Assembly: GCA_035653615.1 (NCBI GenBank)
Contig: DASRBN010000041.1
Coordinates: forward strand, 1-64,000
Origin: Ktedonobacteraceae bacterium
Lineage (GTDB): Bacteria; Chloroflexota; Ktedonobacteria; Ktedonobacterales; Ktedonobacteraceae
Reading direction: 5' to 3'
Length of the DNA stretch: 64,000 bases
Within the stretch, counting starts at the first letter, position 1, and every line of letters starts with the position of its first letter. The notes under the pieces were generated by a model. That model searched no databases and was not told the DNA's origin. It saw nothing but the letters and a program-made list of their open reading frames with translations. The translations under genes and the position numbers were made by a program. Of the stretch, positions 52,578 to 61,048 are shown piece by piece.

Positions 52578-55500
52578 TCAGTCCTCGCTCAGCCGCAATG
52601 TCTGGCTCATTGAAGGACTTAAGACCACACGCGCCATCATGCCCAGGGCAACAATACAGACGATTATCAGCACGATGAAGACGATGTCGAGCGAGAGCGG
52701 TACGACGATGTGCGCCGGAATGATGTGCTGGAGAGCATAAAATTCATCGATATTCGTCATATTGGCGGGCGCGCCGGTAAAGATGAGCGTTGGGACGACC
52801 GTCAATGAGAGTAACGCGCCGAAAACGACTCCCAGCACCAGCGCGGCAATGTAGACAATCGCCTGTTCCCATGTCAGGACGCCGGCAACCTGGCCCGGCG
52901 AGGCCCCTAGAGCGCGCAAGACGGCAAAATTGGTTAAACGTGTGCGAACATTGAGCCACGAAGTGAGCAAGTCGCCGATCACGGCCAGCAACAGGGCAGT
53001 AATCGCCCCTATTACCAGTATAATGATAAGATCAAGGTAAAGTGGGTCATTGCTTAACGTGCTTTCGAGCGCGTAGCGATCATTCAGATTGTCGAGGTGC
53101 AGTGTCGGAGTGTTAAGCGCAGCGCGCACCTGCGCCAGCGAATGTGCATCGTCCATTGCACGCAACCAGACATGATTGATCGGAAGCAAGCTACCGCTAT
53201 TCAAGCCGCCTGCCGCGACAATCTGCGTATCGTAAATGCTAGAATATGTCATATAATCGACCAGAATACCTGCTGGCGGCACATAATCTCCTGCTGCCCC
53301 AAGGGTGGTGTTGTCATTGACGGTCGGAATATGCTGCACCTGGTCAATGACGACGAAGTTCAGGTTGGAGAAATCCCCAGAACCCACCTGCAACGTGAAG
53401 GTAGTCCCGATCTGAAGATTCAGCCTGTTCATGGCATTGGCATCGGCAATCACCGGAACATCGCCAGCACTGCTGACGCCATATTGCCGCTCAGCAGCGA
53501 GCTTTGCCATCAATGAAGAGAGAGGTTCGCTCGAATCCTGAGAGGTCCAGATAGCGGTGTTCGCAAACGTGCTGCTATCGACGGCGCGAATATCAACTGT
53601 CGTGGCAGGCGCTATTCCAGATGAAGTTGCTTCCCCCACATAGCCCGCTGTGGCAGACAGAACGCCTGGTATGCCGGAGTATTTTGCCGTAATATTCTGC
53701 AATGAGGTCACATGAACAGAAGTAGGGAGATCGCCGCTGAAATCCGCACCTGTTTCGTAGGCCGCAATATCACGGCTGTACTGAATCTGGGACGCGGAAA
53801 AGACCAGCGTGAAGATGGCAAAAGCAGTTGCCAGAGCAAGCAGCATCGTCATGCGTACCACCTGGCGAGGAGCGCGCGCTACCTGCGCTAGAGCAAGCAT
53901 GGAGACGGCGCCGCGATTGCGACCGGTAATAGTTGCTCCCCACGCCAACAGATAAGGAAAGAAGCGCAAGAAAAGCAGGATAAGCCCGATCAGCAGGAAG
54001 ATGGGAGCAACCAGCGCCAGCGGCGTCGCAACCAGCACCTGGGCACGGCTATCAAGCAGCGATCCAATGCCGGTAATGTACAGCGAGATACCATAGCCAA
54101 TCAAAGCAATCACGGCGGCTATAACATCGAGCCGGTAACGCTGCCAGAAAGGGACTTGAGTTGTGCGGGCTGTTTCTCGCCGCAGCGCCAGTACATCCAT
54201 CGTCGCGGCTCGCCTGAGCAGGAGAGCCATGGTCAGAATAGCAACCAGCACCGCCACGACTGCATACCACGCGACCCCCAGAATGGCCGAAATGGGATGA
54301 GCTGTAAGCAGCGTAATAGCATCCTGCTGGGCCGGCGGCAACATGCGCTGCGAGATCAGGACAATGGCGATAAGCGCGAGGATAGGCCCAAGGATGAGCG
54401 CAATAATACCAACGCCTATGCTCTGCATGACCAGGAAGCCATAGACCTGGCGCGTCGTCGCCCCACGGCTGCGCAGCATAGCGATGGCCGCGGTCTGCCG
54501 TTCGACCAGCAAACCGGCCATCAAACTGACAAAGAAGAGAATCAGTACGATGATCTGCAGGGAAAGAATATCGATAGGAACATTTACCACCGCGACACGG
54601 TTGTTGTATTGCAGCAGCGTCGCGGGCAATTGATATGTATTGGGTACGGGATTGTAAAGGCTCACCTGCAACATATAAGGGTAGACGATCACCCCATTTG
54701 TCTGGGCTTGATTCTGTATAGGCCCGGCCTTCGCCGCGATATCGGACTGCAAATGGTAAAGCTGTTCCGACAGGTTACTCAATTGATAGATGTTTACCCG
54801 CGAGGGATCAAGATAGTAACGCCAGGTCAACTCATATGTCTGGGGCGAGAAGACGACATTTGAATTGTGCGCGGCGGCAATCGAATCAAGCGCCGCCAGG
54901 AACGATGTACCCGGCACCAGCAGCGTATACGAGGTCTGTGAATCCTGGCTGACCGGCAGGAAATCCTGACCATGCCAGAAGGAATCGGGAATGACGTTGA
55001 AGAGTCCGACGATGTGTAGCTGAAGCGCGCCAACCCGGTGAGGACCGCCGAACATCTCCTGCGTATCCGTATAGTAATCGGGACGCAGCGTGATTACCGA
55101 TCCAACGGTGACATGCAGGCTCTGCGCCGTTTCAGGCGTCAGTATGGTTTCAATCTCACCACTCGCGGCTTGAGGAAGCCGTCCCTGGACTAAGTTGATA
55201 TGAGAAGCGGCCTGCTGAATCGAAGTGCCAAAAAGATTCAGCGTATAAGCCCCCTTAACCGGAGCAGGCGAAACAACCGTGAAGCCCGATCCCTGCACAG
55301 TAAATGCCGTGGACGAGCCGAGATAGTTCGCCAGGTCGTGCTGGATGATGGGCGCAAACTGTTGTTGTATGTTCTGCACGATGCCCGTTGATAATCCCTG
55401 CGTAGTGGTATCAAGCGTGATTTCTGAGGTAGTTGGAGTGGCTGTAAGAGAGGTGCGCAAACCGGCGGTCGTAGTGACGGTTGAAAAGAGCGGCACAGCG

Positions 55501-58500
55501 CAGACAATCACGACGGCAGCAGTGATACCAACGCACGTCAGCAAGAGCAGAAAGCGCACCTGGCGCAATCGCCACAGCGTGAGCGTCAACAGGGATGGAG
55601 TCAATGAGCGTCGGGGGCGACGATGGTTATTTTGCCCGGCCGTTGAACGCGCGATCACCAGTTCCTCTTCTCGCGATAGGAAATCCATGCGCCCATCCTC
55701 GCTCAAACGCAGCACCTGGCTCATTGAGCGATGTAAAATGACGCTCATCATCATCACAAGCGCTACAATGAGGATCGCGATCAGCACCAGAAATGCTATG
55801 CCTAGCGAAACAGGGACAACGAGCTGCACCGGTATGATCTGCTGAAGCGCGTAAAAGTCGTTATTGCTGATAAAGGTTCCGGGCGTGATACTGGTAAAGA
55901 CCAGGGCCGGCACCACTGTGACAGCAAGCAGGGCGCCAAAAAAGATGCCCAACAGAAGTGCGGCGGCATAGACGATGCCCTGTTCCCACAGCAAAACGCG
56001 GGCAATTTGTCTCGGAGCGGTTCCCAGCGCTCGCAGTAGCGCGAAGTTGGTCAGGCGCGTGCGCACGCTCAACCAGGACGCCATTAAATTGCCGGCAACC
56101 GCTAACAAGAGCGCAGCGCTTGCGCCCAGGATAAGCACGCCTATCAAATCCAGAAAGAGTGGATCGGAATGTAGAGCGCCGGCCAGCATGCGGCGATCAA
56201 CCAGGTTATCGAGTTGCAAATAGCCGCCGGTCAGAGCGGCTCGCACGCTTGCCAATGACACGGGATCATCGCTCGTTCGCAGCCAGATTTGATTCAGCGT
56301 GAGATAGGAGCGATTGACCTGGAACTGCACCGCGGACAGGCTGGCGTAATCGACCAGCACACCTCCGGCGGAAGTATCGGTGACGGTCGGGATATGCTGC
56401 ACCTCGGCGATAGCGATGTAGTGCAGGTTATCGCCGGGAGTCGCGCTGTTATTGACCGAAAAAGTTGCTCCGACGTGCAGGCCAAGGCGATTCCAGGTGT
56501 ACGCATCGACGATGGCTGGTACTGCTGTTGTCCTTATGGCATTCCCGCGCTGGGCCAGGAGTTGCGTCATCAAAGACGAGAGGGACTGCGACGAGTCCAC
56601 CGGAGTCCAGATCATAGTCTGGGCAAAGGTCGAGGGATCGACCGCGCGAATCTCAATTGGAATGCTCGGAGCCGTCAACTCTGAGAGGCCCTGGACTACT
56701 GACGCATCTGCTGTATAGCCAACAGAGGCCGAGGTGACGCCGGGTATATGCTTATAAAGCGCTGTTTGTTGGGCCAGCGGAAGAATATTCATATCCAGGC
56801 GAAAGTTGCCGCTGAAATCTGAGCCTGTCTGATATGCAGCGATATCCAGGCTGCGTTGATCCTGCGAGGCGACAAATACCAGGGTAAAGATGGTAAATGC
56901 CGTGGCAAGCGCGAGTAGCAGCGTCATACGTACAGCCTGGCGAGGAGCGCGGGCCATATGCGCCAGCGCCAGCATGGGCGCCGCGCCCCGCATACGCATG
57001 GCGAGATTCGATCCCAGCCGCAACAGGATTGGGAAGAAACGTATGAAGAGCAGCACTACGGCGAGCAAGAGGAAGATGGGGCCAATCAAGGCCAGAGGCG
57101 TGGAGATCAGGGCCTGTGTCTGGGCGCTAAGCAACCCTTGCACATTGCCAAGATAGAGCGAGACACCATATCCGGCCAGCGCAATGATGATAGCGATCAC
57201 ATCCAGATTCAGGCGCTGCAATAACGAGCGCCTTCGCCCCGCGCTGACAACATTCATACGAGACGCGCGATACAGGAAGAAGATCATGGCAACGATGGCA
57301 GCAAGCGCTGTGATGATGGCATATGCGCGAATATCCAGCAAGGCCTGGAGAGGAGCATTAGAGATAACATTGATGGCATTTTGTATCGCCGACGGCAGCA
57401 GGCGCAGGGCAATGAAATAGACAGCGACAATGGCAAGCGGTGGTCCAACGATGAGCGCGATCAGGCTTAACACAATACTCTGCGTAATGAGCGAACCGAG
57501 TACCTGCCAGTTGCTCGCCCCACGGCTGCGCAGAACCGCGATCCCCTCGGCCTGCCGGTCGACGAGCAATTGCGCCATCATGCTGACAAAGAAGAGCAGC
57601 AGCAGGATTACCTGCAAAGCGAGGATAGAAGAGGGCAGATTTGCCAGGGCCATTTGACTGCGAAAGCGCTCTAAGCTGCTGGGAGTGCTGGAAGTACTGA
57701 AAACCGAGCCGCTTAGCTGAACAGTCTGCATAAAAGGAGATTGCAGGATCATCGCAGGGTCGCCGAAGTTATTCGCGATAAAGGCTTTGGTAGCGGCCAG
57801 TTGCTTGATGAGCGTATTGAGCTGGTTGATGGAAATCCGCGCAGGAGCCAGGTGATAATACCAGTAAATATGCGAAGGCTTCGAGAAAAATACCTGGTCA
57901 ACTGAATGGCTCCGCGCCATTTGCTGAAATGTACTCAGTAACTGCTGATCGGAAGCAAGGATGTAGTAAAAGGACGGCCCATTATCAGGCGCGTAGGGTT
58001 GAAAATCCTCACCATTCCAGTAAGGATCGCCGGCTTTGACGTTGAAGAGGCCGACCACGTGCAGCTTGAACGCCAGGGGTATACCACTCTGGAAGAGCGA
58101 ACCTTTAGCAATACTGATAACCGCTGGCTGCGTGTAGTAGGAGAGCTGAATAGTGATTACGGAGCCGACGCCCACGTGCAGTTCTTTAGCAGTTTCCGGT
58201 GTGATTGCCACCTCGACATCCTGGCTCGTTGTCTGAGGCAGCCGTCCCTGTACTATCGAAAGATGAGAAGCCGATTCATGCATAGAGAATGCTTCGAGTG
58301 AGACCAGGTTGCCATCCTCTGGGGGAGAGATAAATCCAAAATTAGGGGTAGTAATCTCGCGTTCCGGTGGGCCGCTCAGATAGCTTTTCAGGAATTGTGG
58401 CACGACAGGCAGCACCTGCTGGCCGATCTGGTTGACACCATCCGTAGATAAGCCCGCGGAGTCAACCTCCAGCGTCATTTCCGAACTTGTTGGGGTCGCG

Positions 58501-58706
58501 GTCAGCGTATTGCGCAATCCGGCGGTGAGCATGACTTCGGAAAAGAGGGGAACGGCGCAGACAATCATGACGGCGGCCACTATCCCCAACCCTGTCATCA
58601 GCAGCAAAAACCAGTGCTGCCGCCAGCGCCAGAGCGCCAGTTCTACTGTAGAGGTTACCGGTGAGAGACTGATAGAGTGCTGTCCAGGTTTTGTCGAGCG
58701 AGCCAT
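52578..58706 (-). CDS. Giant double-unit FtsX/MacB-like permease
   Basis: About 2042 residues from ATG 58706 (AGAGGTGA upstream). The protein is two related units in tandem. Each begins with a TM (VAAVMIVCAVPLFSEV / TAAVVIVCAVPLFSTV) followed by TAGLRxxLTATPT. Each then has a large outer domain, three central TM helices with an FVSxMAxLLVxRQ motif and LRSRGA, a second outer domain, and closing FtsX-type TM helices with LLRALG/VLRALG, ending MSQxLRLSED. The junction is near residue 1005-1020 (genome about 55,650-55,700). Usual FtsX/MacB permeases have one unit of 400-1000 residues. No ATPase gene adjoins. Roles of such permeases include lipoprotein or peptide export and wall-hydrolase control; here it is unknown. 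Confidence 0.88.
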   Translation of the reverse strand: MARSTKPGQHSISLSPVTSTVELALWRWRQHWFLLLMTGLGIVAAVMIVCAVPLFSEVMLTAGLRNTLTATPTSSEMTLEVDSAGLSTDGVNQIGQQVLPVVPQFLKSYLSGPPEREITTPNFGFISPPEDGNLVSLEAFSMHESASHLSIVQGRLPQTTSQDVEVAITPETAKELHVGVGSVITIQLSYYTQPAVISIAKGSLFQSGIPLAFKLHVVGLFNVKAGDPYWNGEDFQPYAPDNGPSFYYILASDQQLLSTFQQMARSHSVDQVFFSKPSHIYWYYHLAPARISINQLNTLIKQLAATKAFIANNFGDPAMILQSPFMQTVQLSGSVFSTSSTPSSLERFRSQMALANLPSSILALQVILLLLFFVSMMAQLLVDRQAEGIAVLRSRGASNWQVLGSLITQSIVLSLIALIVGPPLAIVAVYFIALRLLPSAIQNAINVISNAPLQALLDIRAYAIITALAAIVAMIFFLYRASRMNVVSAGRRRSLLQRLNLDVIAIIIALAGYGVSLYLGNVQGLLSAQTQALISTPLALIGPIFLLLAVVLLFIRFFPILLRLGSNLAMRMRGAAPMLALAHMARAPRQAVRMTLLLALATAFTIFTLVFVASQDQRSLDIAAYQTGSDFSGNFRLDMNILPLAQQTALYKHIPGVTSASVGYTADASVVQGLSELTAPSIPIEIRAVDPSTFAQTMIWTPVDSSQSLSSLMTQLLAQRGNAIRTTAVPAIVDAYTWNRLGLHVGATFSVNNSATPGDNLHYIAIAEVQHIPTVTDTSAGGVLVDYASLSAVQFQVNRSYLTLNQIWLRTSDDPVSLASVRAALTGGYLQLDNLVDRRMLAGALHSDPLFLDLIGVLILGASAALLLAVAGNLMASWLSVRTRLTNFALLRALGTAPRQIARVLLWEQGIVYAAALLLGIFFGALLAVTVVPALVFTSITPGTFISNNDFYALQQIIPVQLVVPVSLGIAFLVLIAILIVALVMMMSVILHRSMSQVLRLSEDGRMDFLSREEELVIARSTAGQNNHRRPRRSLTPSLLTLTLWRLRQVRFLLLLTCVGITAAVVIVCAVPLFSTVTTTAGLRTSLTATPTTSEITLDTTTQGLSTGIVQNIQQQFAPIIQHDLANYLGSSTAFTVQGSGFTVVSPAPVKGAYTLNLFGTSIQQAASHINLVQGRLPQAASGEIETILTPETAQSLHVTVGSVITLRPDYYTDTQEMFGGPHRVGALQLHIVGLFNVIPDSFWHGQDFLPVSQDSQTSYTLLVPGTSFLAALDSIAAAHNSNVVFSPQTYELTWRYYLDPSRVNIYQLSNLSEQLYHLQSDIAAKAGPIQNQAQTNGVIVYPYMLQVSLYNPVPNTYQLPATLLQYNNRVAVVNVPIDILSLQIIVLILFFVSLMAGLLVERQTAAIAMLRSRGATTRQVYGFLVMQSIGVGIIALILGPILALIAIVLISQRMLPPAQQDAITLLTAHPISAILGVAWYAVVAVLVAILTMALLLRRAATMDVLALRRETARTTQVPFWQRYRLDVIAAVIALIGYGISLYITGIGSLLDSRAQVLVATPLALVAPIFLLIGLILLFLRFFPYLLAWGATITGRNRGAVSMLALAQVARAPRQVVRMTMLLALATAFAIFTLVFSASQIQYSRDIAAYETGADFSGDLPTSVHVTSLQNITAKYSGIPGVLSATAGYVGEATSSGIAPATTVDIRAVDSSTFANTAIWTSQDSSEPLSSLMAKLAAERQYGVSSAGDVPVIADANAMNRLNLQIGTTFTLQVGSGDFSNLNFVVIDQVQHIPTVNDNTTLGAAGDYVPPAGILVDYMTYSSIYDTQIVAAGGLNSGSLLPINHVWLRAMDDAHSLAQVRAALNTPTLHLDNLNDRYALESTLSNDPLYLDLIIILVIGAITALLLAVIGDLLTSWLNVRTRLTNFAVLRALGASPGQVAGVLTWEQAIVYIAALVLGVVFGALLSLTVVPTLIFTGAPANMTNIDEFYALQHIIPAHIVVPLSLDIVFIVLIIVCIVALGMMARVVLSPSMSQTLRLSED

Positions 58707-58746
58707 CTTCACCTCTATTTTTTAGAATTTTGTAAGACCCCGTGGA

Positions 58747-58883: not shown

Positions 58884-60464
58884 TCACGAAGAATACAACT
58901 CGACAAGCGTCCGTGATGAAGAGAAGGTACTGACCTGCACGGTTCCTACAGCCCATAGTTCGCCGGTGCGAGGAACTTGAGCGATAGCATACAGAAGGTT
59001 GCTATCTGTGCCAAAATCTGTATTTTTGACCACGCTCCACTGTTTCCCATTCCAGTGTTCGACCAGGGCCAGCGACTCCTGCCCGGGATATCTACTGCGT
59101 GGCGAATATCCAACCGCCCAGACATCATCTGACGAACGCGCAACTACGTCATTCAGCTGATTGCCACCTACGCCCGGATTGGGACTGCTCACAATACTCC
59201 ATCGCGAGCCGTCCCAGTGTTCGATCAGGGTCTTGATGGTGCTGGAATTACTCCCGCTGGTAGAGAAGCCCACGGCCCAGATGTCGTTCGATGAAACGAC
59301 AGCCAGCCCACTCAGTATTTGTTCGTTTGCTCCCCCAAGGTTCGGACCGGACACGATGCTCCACTGCCGGCCATCCCAATGTTCGATTAAAATCAGGTTC
59401 CCGCTATTGTAATAACCACTATTAGAGCTATATCCTACCGTCCAGATATCATTCGTCGAGACAACCGCAACCTTGTAGAGGATATTCTGAGCCAGTACTC
59501 CATTGGGGCTGGGAACAATACTCCAACGACTGCCATCCCAATGCTCGATCAGCGTTTTTGAGGCCGAGGTTTTGAGATCTAACGTGTATCCCACCGTCCA
59601 GATATCATTCGATGAGACGGCGGCAATTGAAGAAAGATTGCTCTGGTCAAATTGAGGCTTTGGACTCTGGACAATACTCCATTGCTTACCATCCCAATGT
59701 TCGATCAAAGTACTCATCACCTGCTTATCCCAGCTATATCCTACCGCCCAGGCATCGTTTGACGAGAGGGCGGCTACACCCTCAAGACCATAATCGCCAT
59801 CTCCAGGCTTTGGACTCCGCACAACACTCCACTGCCGGCCATTCCAGTGTTCGATCAGGGCGCTCGTTACCACAGTATTTTGCTGTATGCTGCCATTCGA
59901 CGAGGTTCCCACTGCCCACGCATCGCTTGACGAGAGGGCATCCACACTGCCAAGTTGATTCTGGAACGTCCCGGCACCTGGGCTAGGGACAACTTTCCAG
60001 CTATAAACAGGACCAGAGCCAGTGATTGCTCCCCGATTATGTAAAGCTACTAGCGCCAGGAATGTGCCCAGCAGGGCCACCACAACCAGCACGGCAACCA
60101 GAGCCTGCGCGCCTACACGCAAACGTGGCGCATGATGAACGTTGCGAGGCACGCGAGCGGCTGTGGTGGCGATTTGCTCACTTTTCTCGCTCTCCTTCAC
60201 AAACGGAGTAGATGCCAGAGAACTGCCCTGCGCATCCCACATATAAAGTAAGCGCGCGGGTATTGCCGGCAGCGGTTTAACGTCTGGCAACTGTTCCAGA
60301 TATCTTCCCATGGCCTCATACTCGGCGCGAACGGTAGCACATGCCTGGCAGGACGCGATATGCGTTTCAAGAGCTATACGCTCAAGGGGTGCGAGATCGT
60401 CTGGATGGGTCGCGGCCAGTTTTTCGGCCCAGAACGCACACGGGGTCTGATCTATTGATTTCAT
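58884..60464 (-). CDS. Anti-sigma factor with extracytoplasmic seven-repeat propeller
   Basis: A 526-residue protein. Residues 1-50 hold the ZAS zinc motif (His35, Cys39, Cys42 in LETHIASCQACATV) that binds ECF sigma factors. A TM helix spans about 115-138 (VAVLVVVALLGTFLALVAL). From about 165 to the end seven repeats of about 50 residues each carry SSNDxWAVGY (or close) followed by LIEHWDGxxWSIVxSPxPG. Seven such repeats fit a seven-bladed beta-propeller outside the membrane. The start overlaps the sigma factor stop (ATGA), so the pair is cotranslated. The propeller is a likely sensor of an extracellular ligand or wall component (inference). Confidence 0.9.
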   Translation of the reverse strand: MKSIDQTPCAFWAEKLAATHPDDLAPLERIALETHIASCQACATVRAEYEAMGRYLEQLPDVKPLPAIPARLLYMWDAQGSSLASTPFVKESEKSEQIATTAARVPRNVHHAPRLRVGAQALVAVLVVVALLGTFLALVALHNRGAITGSGPVYSWKVVPSPGAGTFQNQLGSVDALSSSDAWAVGTSSNGSIQQNTVVTSALIEHWNGRQWSVVRSPKPGDGDYGLEGVAALSSNDAWAVGYSWDKQVMSTLIEHWDGKQWSIVQSPKPQFDQSNLSSIAAVSSNDIWTVGYTLDLKTSASKTLIEHWDGSRWSIVPSPNGVLAQNILYKVAVVSTNDIWTVGYSSNSGYYNSGNLILIEHWDGRQWSIVSGPNLGGANEQILSGLAVVSSNDIWAVGFSTSGSNSSTIKTLIEHWDGSRWSIVSSPNPGVGGNQLNDVVARSSDDVWAVGYSPRSRYPGQESLALVEHWNGKQWSVVKNTDFGTDSNLLYAIAQVPRTGELWAVGTVQVSTFSSSRTLVELYSS

Positions 60465-61048
60465 CGTAAAGGCACTCCTTTCAAGCGCCGGTATTCAAGG
60501 CGAAACTGCTCGCGCCCGCGGCTGACATATGCGCTGACACTCTTCTCACTGATGCCCAGCACGGCGGCAATTTCGCGTTGCGAGAAACCGGCAACATGCT
60601 GTAAGAGCAGGCACGACCGGCTCTGCGGTGAGAGCATTGCCAGAATCCTGGTAATACATTCCTGCTCTATAGCCCGCTCCTCTGGCCCCGCGACCTTCAA
60701 AACGTGATGAGAGGTTTCCTTTTCGTGGTCGGCCCAGGGCAATAAACCTATCAACTGCTCGCGCTTGAGATACGAACGGGCAACATTCGTGGCAATGCGA
60801 TAGAGCCAGGGACGAAAGGCGATCTCTCCCTGTAACTTCGGCAGCCCTTTCCAGGCACGGATAAACGTCTCCTGGGCAAGATCACGTCCCACCTCGTCAT
60901 TGCCCACAAGGTGCGCAAGATATTTACAAATAGGAGCGTTATAGCGTTCAAATAATTGCGTGAAGGCCTTCTGATCTCCTGCACGTGCAGATTCCAGTGT
61001 CTCTACCGGTTCTGTACCGGTAGAATCAGGGGGCAACGACTGCGCCAT
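60461..61048 (-). CDS. ECF sigma factor
   Basis: A 195-residue RpoE-like ECF sigma factor from ATG 61048 (AGGAGAAGG upstream; longer frames to 61222 have no support). Region 2 has LFERYNAPICKYLAHLVGND, DLAQETFIRAWKGLPKL and FRPWLYRIATNVARSYLKRE. Region 4 has LSPQSRSCLLLQHVAGFSQR then EIAAVLGISEKSVSAYVSRG. It forms an operon with the downstream anti-sigma gene (4-nt overlap), which presumably holds it at the membrane until an outside signal. Targets are unknown. Confidence 0.93.
   Translation of the reverse strand: MAQSLPPDSTGTEPVETLESARAGDQKAFTQLFERYNAPICKYLAHLVGNDEVGRDLAQETFIRAWKGLPKLQGEIAFRPWLYRIATNVARSYLKREQLIGLLPWADHEKETSHHVLKVAGPEERAIEQECITRILAMLSPQSRSCLLLQHVAGFSQREIAAVLGISEKSVSAYVSRGREQFRLEYRRLKGVPLR

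Follow-up and report, generated by a model that had tools for sequence, protein, structure and literature searches.

A propeller-bearing anti-sigma factor and the turnover of outer domains on an ECF-ZAS chassis in Ktedonobacterales

The inputs of most ECF systems are unknown, and an anti-sigma factor that carries a large folded domain outside the membrane raises the question of what this domain is for and where it came from. Such a protein is encoded next to an ECF sigma factor in a 64,000-nucleotide stretch of contig DASRBN010000041.1 of a Ktedonobacteraceae bacterium (hereafter, the window). Here we ask whether its outer domain can be read as a receptor, how it is related to other propellers, and how stably such domains are held by the sigma/anti-sigma pairs that bear them.

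The sigma gene and the membrane anti-sigma factor

Both open reading frames and their 4-nt overlap are found where a sequence-only reading of this DNA had placed them (Table 1). The sigma gene starts with an ATG at 61048, preceded by a Shine-Dalgarno sequence of the AGGAG type. Its product matches Sigma70_r2 (1.1e-14) and Sigma70_r4_2 (8.3e-15) in Pfam and scores 86.5 bits with TIGR02937, above the cut-off of that profile. With regions 2 and 4, no region 3 and a length close to 200 aa, it has the make-up of an ECF sigma factor. The adjacency of sigma and anti-sigma genes is kept throughout the clan of related pairs described below, and the two proteins would be expected to bind each other.

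Table 1. Features of the sigma/anti-sigma locus, in positions of the window
Feature	Position	Strand	Basis
ECF sigma factor, 195 aa	60461..61048	(-)	Sigma70_r2 + Sigma70_r4_2 (Pfam)
Sigma stop/anti-sigma start, ATGA overlap of 4 nt	60461..60464	(-)	sequence
Membrane anti-sigma factor, 526 aa	58884..60464	(-)	ORF
Cytoplasmic CHCC zinc anti-sigma (ZAS) site, C9-x25-H35-x3-C39-x2-C42	60339..60440	(-)	motif, clan conservation
TM helix, residues 121-141	60042..60104	(-)	hydropathy; single-sequence AF2 helix 114-147
Predicted extracellular seven-bladed beta-propeller, residues 145-526	58887..60032	(-)	AF2 with alignment A1; Foldseek
N-terminal closing strand YSWKVV, residues 154-159, completing the last blade	59988..60005	(-)	AF2, sequence
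Seven blade anchors of D-x-W-[AT]-V-G type	58944..59924	(-)	motif search
Starts of the blade anchors	59907, 59739, 59589, 59433, 59268, 59109, 58944	(-)	

The anti-sigma factor has, as had been read from the sequence, a ZAS zinc motif and one strong TM segment; basic residues lie on the cytoplasmic side of this segment, giving an N-in C-out orientation. On the query alone the Pfam family zf-HC2 is weak (16 bits vs. a cut-off of 22) and the NCBIfam antisigma profile stays under its curated cut-off; homologues such as the paralogue L029 do pass. The ZAS assignment is made because the motif, the adjoining sigma gene and homologues above the profile cut-offs point the same way. The full CHCC motif, with a C-H spacing of 24 or 25, is present in all 24 clan anti-sigma factors, query counted, and the N-terminal Hx3Cx2C domain places the query among class I anti-sigma factors (ASDI/ZAS). 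It is not of the RsgI type, which is defined by an RsgI N-terminal domain and an autocleaving periplasmic domain, because a ZAS domain stands at the N-terminus instead and the propeller follows straight after the TM helix, leaving no room for an autocleaving domain.

A common autoregulatory ECF promoter was sought 5' of the clan sigma genes and was not found; one GGAAC-N16-TCTC-like match lies ahead of the query sigma gene and is not common to the other clan sigma genes. A conserved target gene adjoining the locus was also sought and not found; the neighbours differ between members with different sensors and thus point to no target. At 171 nt 3' of the anti-sigma gene and on the same strand, the window encodes an FtsX-like permease of 2044 aa (52578-58712, (-)), whose four FtsX stretches make up two permease units in tandem. 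Its co-transcription with the anti-sigma gene is possible. This permease is not kept next to other clan anti-sigma genes.

The predicted propeller and its unnamed family

The outer part consists of seven repeats of about 43-62 residues with a mean identity of 45% between units. The repeat motifs SSNDxWAVGY and EHWDGxxWSIV noted earlier were recovered as seven blade anchors plus six copies of EHW[DN]GxxWS[IV]V; the N-terminal YSWKVV strand completes the remaining, seventh blade. In 20,000 shuffles of the residues, at most 1 anchor and 0 EHW motifs appeared, vs. the seven and six observed. Run on the full-length protein as a single sequence, AlphaFold2 produced no usable model (pLDDT 45), and an alignment-based run took its place. 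With alignment A1 (15 sequences, the query and fourteen homologous stretches), AlphaFold2 predicted a closed seven-bladed propeller (pLDDT 89.2, pTM 0.90), its 28 strands falling into seven sets of four. The last blade takes in the first strand, which is the usual way in which propellers are closed. The sequence-only reading had proposed such a closed propeller, which the model supports. It had also named two outcomes that would speak against it, a prediction without a propeller and loss of the zinc motif in relatives; the predicted ring closes, and the motif is intact in all 24 pairs.

Among solved structures, the top Foldseek matches are YCF48 chains (TM to target 0.63-0.71) and CylK (TM to query 0.66-0.68), followed by Kelch and sialidase propellers. 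At the sequence level, a PDB search with the query gave no significant chain match, and none of the Pfam propeller families Kelch, WD40, PQQ, BNR and PD40 matched the query repeat at E<=1. There is likewise no PD40/TolB match in Pfam that would make the query an anti-sigma factor of Tt-TolB type. Pfam matches to DUF2510 and DUF6087 were rejected as short matches to the WDG motif, with no stretch passing alone. The conserved EHWDGxxW lies in the hairpin that connects the final pair of strands in a blade. Because this hairpin occupies the place of the Asp-box in YCF48 and sialidase propellers, its role is probably structural by analogy, and the variable loops would be better candidates for ligand contact. 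From propeller topology, the tether of about 12 residues between TM helix and propeller should enter on the face of the EHWDGxxW hairpins, and the WAVG-EHW loops of variable length should point away from the membrane.

The same blade occurs in about 15 further proteins of the 6.6-Mb host genome. Most of them have a signal-like N-terminus and none has an anti-sigma part; these stand-alone, apparently secreted propellers also lack any Pfam family. Other Ktedonobacterales encode similar secreted propellers, and so do genome records bearing the labels Actinomycetota, Acidobacteriota and Verrucomicrobiota. In the propeller tree, the query is placed among the secreted stand-alone propellers (100/100), the closest of which is 47% identical to it. 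A divergent form of the blade is carried by a distant sigma clade (L130, L132, L134, L065) and by one further pair (L145), and L065 matches the query propeller profile with 98.9% probability (E 1e-17). The full-length propellers of L065, L130, L132 and L145 form one clade (100/100) apart from the query. Details of this tree are rough, owing to imperfect alignment of the repeats and several long branches; the two-way split agrees with pairwise scores, which for the query propeller are 298 bits with L002 of its own genome and 67-69 bits with L145 and L130. Because tree and scores agree on this split, the blade was probably joined to ZAS anti-sigma factors at least twice independently. As to how the query acquired its propeller, its blades are up to 65% similar to blades of stand-alone propellers and up to 62% similar to one another. 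Since they resemble stand-alone blades as much as each other, we prefer capture of a whole propeller over amplification of blades inside the anti-sigma gene. The BNR sensor of L044 was tested as a source of the query propeller, and the result did not support such a descent.

In an Actinomycetota record (MGR_bin305, L040:3466-5893), an ECF sigma gene overlaps the gene for a one-TM protein that has the same blade type and no Hx3Cx2C; this may be a third version of the system, one without zinc, in another phylum.

Different outer domains on one chassis

The cytoplasmic part of the anti-sigma factor, used as a query, retrieved similarly constructed pairs from Ktedonobacterales, and among 400 sampled Chloroflexota genomes every match at E<=1e-7 lay in this order. 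A comparison set of 71 sigma/ZAS pairs was used for a sigma tree of 72 rows, and a second tree was built from concatenated sigma and ASDI sequences. In the sigma tree, the query falls into one clade (95/91) with members bearing other outer domains: PQQ in a paralogue of the same genome (L029) and in L048, L050 and L141, BNR/Sortilin in L044, and Germane in L045. The neighbour of this clade comprises members with WD40 propellers and L139 with an unassigned ectodomain. In the concatenated tree, the clan is set apart from outgroups at 100/100, and the branching order among differently equipped members has weak support. The outer domains were recognized by Pfam (PQQ_2 1e-28, WD40 e-69 to e-83, Sortilin/BNR 2e-9, Germane 1e-5), and the query propeller profile matched none of the BNR, PQQ and WD40 ectodomains. 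Between the query and the differently equipped pairs of its clade, the sigma factors are 51-57% identical and the ASDI 34-48%. BLASTP homology of the anti-sigma factors stops at residue 79 with the PQQ paralogue L029 and at residue 153, just beyond the TM helix, with the BNR member L044. Counting L139, the clan holds six kinds of ectodomain, and therefore at least five changes are needed on any tree. Other sigma clades, for example a nine-row PD40 clade, keep one kind, and within the WD40 clan the sensor is kept over many genera.

A survey of paralogues, suggested by the sequence-only reading, turned up the PQQ-bearing chassis and the stand-alone propellers and no second locus with the same fusion; nor was a close orthologue of the exact sigma/anti-sigma/propeller combination found in the genomes searched. 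A built-in ectodomain had been regarded as rare in ECF anti-sigma factors. This estimate was off because such domains are common among the relatives: most related Ktedonobacterales anti-sigma factors carry a large extracellular domain, often a propeller, and Tt-TolB, RsgI and ECF52 are precedents elsewhere. At slightly less than even odds, one ECF-ZAS-TM cassette serves in Ktedonobacterales as a receptor platform whose outer domains, mostly propellers from unrelated repeat families, have been swapped; each swap would give a single-protein receptor in which the propeller binds the ligand and which exerts direct control over transcription. Of the earlier proposal of a one-component transmembrane sensor, the membrane anti-sigma factor with its own outer domain stands; the switch itself consists of two proteins, sigma and anti-sigma.

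Other arrangements were seen in the same material. A single 798-aa frame (L206:1170-3563; G026:C2:2544669-2547062) joins an ECF sigma factor, CHCC, TM and a PQQ propeller; by its sequence, sigma and anti-sigma factor are fused here, which gives the system in a genuine one-protein form. L207:2882-3805 (G024:C1 near 5427399) combines ZAS and TM with a glucosaminidase/lysozyme-like outer domain, for which the Pfam Glucosaminidase match (0.0017) is under the cut-off, and a search with the query sigma detected no sigma gene within about 1.5 kb. In L063 (G002) and L068 (G017), ECF sigma factors adjoin ZAS-type proteins that have at least two hydrophobic segments and a ligand-binding domain of the Peripla_BP_6 family. 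The host genome (G000) has about 40 ECF-sigma-like stretches in its 6.6 Mb and at least four propeller-bearing candidate anti-sigma factors: the query, L029 with PQQ, L201 with PD40, and L204 (L204:749-2428, G000:C21), a PQQ propeller protein without the zinc motif encoded after an ECF sigma gene.

A proposed receptor switch, its alternatives and its precedents

We consider it fairly likely that the locus is a co-transcribed switch of ECF sigma and anti-sigma factor, in which the propeller is a built-in receptor and an exchangeable outer module, and in which a ligand triggers proteolysis. In class I anti-sigma factors, the zinc domain sequesters the sigma factor until the anti-sigma factor is cut. 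At rest, the cytoplasmic CHCC zinc domain would keep the sigma factor at the membrane. The propeller would bind a ligand at the surface (a wall glycan, a peptide or a secreted protein), and binding would expose or distort the juxtamembrane stretch. A site-1 protease and then an RseP-type site-2 protease would cut the anti-sigma factor, and the freed sigma factor would transcribe its regulon. The host genome has an RseP-type protease (M50 and PDZ), encoded between genes reading as dxr and ispG. The first cut would need to take away or shift a bulky propeller so near the membrane, and a ligand would be the natural trigger for it. The query chassis would have taken its outer domain from the genome's pool of secreted propellers, and its relatives carry PQQ, WD40, BNR and Germane. 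From what was computed, namely the sigma factor, the ZAS motif, the TM helix, the predicted closed propeller, the conservation of the chassis, the turnover of sensors and the RseP homologue, we infer the binding of the pair, the ligand, the proteolysis and the regulon.

Propellers of the WD40 and PQQ families often serve as scaffolds on which proteins dock, and the query propeller might instead be a docking platform: a secreted or membrane partner, perhaps a stand-alone propeller or a wall protein, would shield or uncover the anti-sigma factor, with the zinc site sensing redox inside. The C-x25-H-x3-C-x2-C spacing, which we take to be that of RsrA-type redox anti-sigma factors, would fit this account, as would the peptide binding of YCF48, the closest solved seven-bladed fold (5ojr, 5ojp). 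However, turnover of sensors on one chassis suits changing inputs better than one fixed partner, and it has been suggested that zinc in membrane-bound anti-sigma factors could have a structural and not a sensory role (Casas-Pastor et al., PMC7406223), so that we regard docking as unlikely. The outer domains might also be inert bulk that blocks site-2 proteolysis by size, with the site-1 protease responding to general envelope stress as the signal, in which case any folded domain would suffice. RseP-type proteases, as known from RseP of E. coli, exclude bulky ectodomains, and very different folds (PQQ, WD40 and others) sit on the one chassis with short tethers. Against this, the WD40 clan retains its sensor across many genera, and the query propeller retains all seven anchors and its closure, which is beyond what bulk requires; inert bulk is a poor candidate in our estimation.

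That the locus is an artefact of assembly or annotation, with an anti-sigma gene joined to a stand-alone propeller gene, is highly improbable. The genome has the stand-alone propellers for such an error, and the exact fusion is in no second genome searched. However, a mis-join is unlikely because the closest stand-alone propeller is only 47% identical, leaving no long identical stretch to cause it; the frame is uninterrupted, chassis and propeller have GC3 values of 0.545 and 0.549, and other genomes have similar fusions (L065, L130, L132, L145).

A propeller on an anti-sigma factor is already known in principle. TolB-like domains have a propeller fold. Like the query locus, that of Thermoanaerobacter tengcongensis encodes an ECF sigma factor, Tt-RpoE1, followed directly by a one-TM anti-sigma factor with a C-terminal TolB-like domain; Tt-TolB was verified in 2012, with sigma binding by its short N-terminal domain in two-hybrid and in vitro assays (PMC3397946). 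This N-terminal domain has about 39 residues, zinc is unmentioned (PMC3397946), and the repeats are of the TolB type, unlike the SSNDxWAVG/EHWDGxxW blade of the query. The SigI/RsgI systems of Clostridium thermocellum also have one chassis with many exchangeable extracellular sensors (CBM3, CBM42, PA14, GH10) and regulated proteolysis (RIP) with RseP (PMC4711584; PMC12203970). RsgI differs in that it lacks a ZAS and has a periplasmic domain that cleaves itself, and its sensors are carbohydrate modules, not propellers. SigI is not usually classified as an ECF factor. ECF52, found only in Actinobacteria, unites an ECF sigma factor with a zinc domain, TM and a carbohydrate-binding domain (SCO4117, PMC5826349), and ECF57 unites one with WD40-like repeats (PMC8999054); in both, the extra parts are fused to the sigma factor itself in one chain. 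The seven-bladed fold is shared with YCF48/BNR-type propellers (5ojr, 5ojp), and the D-G-x-x-W hairpin appears Asp-box-like in place and pattern, whereas the query has neither a significant PDB sequence match nor a Pfam propeller family. No paper describing the query anti-sigma factor or its propeller family was found among the open-access papers searched.

What is new here is the exchange of ectodomains within the clan, together with the unnamed propeller family. Class I ASDI/ZAS groups share with the query the Hx3Cx2C domain, the co-encoded ECF and C-terminal extra domains, and fused domains in them are "typically well conserved" within a group (Casas-Pastor et al., 2020, PMC7406223). The clan, in which the sensor changes, is an exception to this published rule of one fused sensor type per anti-sigma group. 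A constant sigma/anti-sigma pair with a changing outer domain amounts to a domain swap done by nature: it opens to testing the question of which part is responsible for signal specificity, and offers ready-made chimeras for sensor building.
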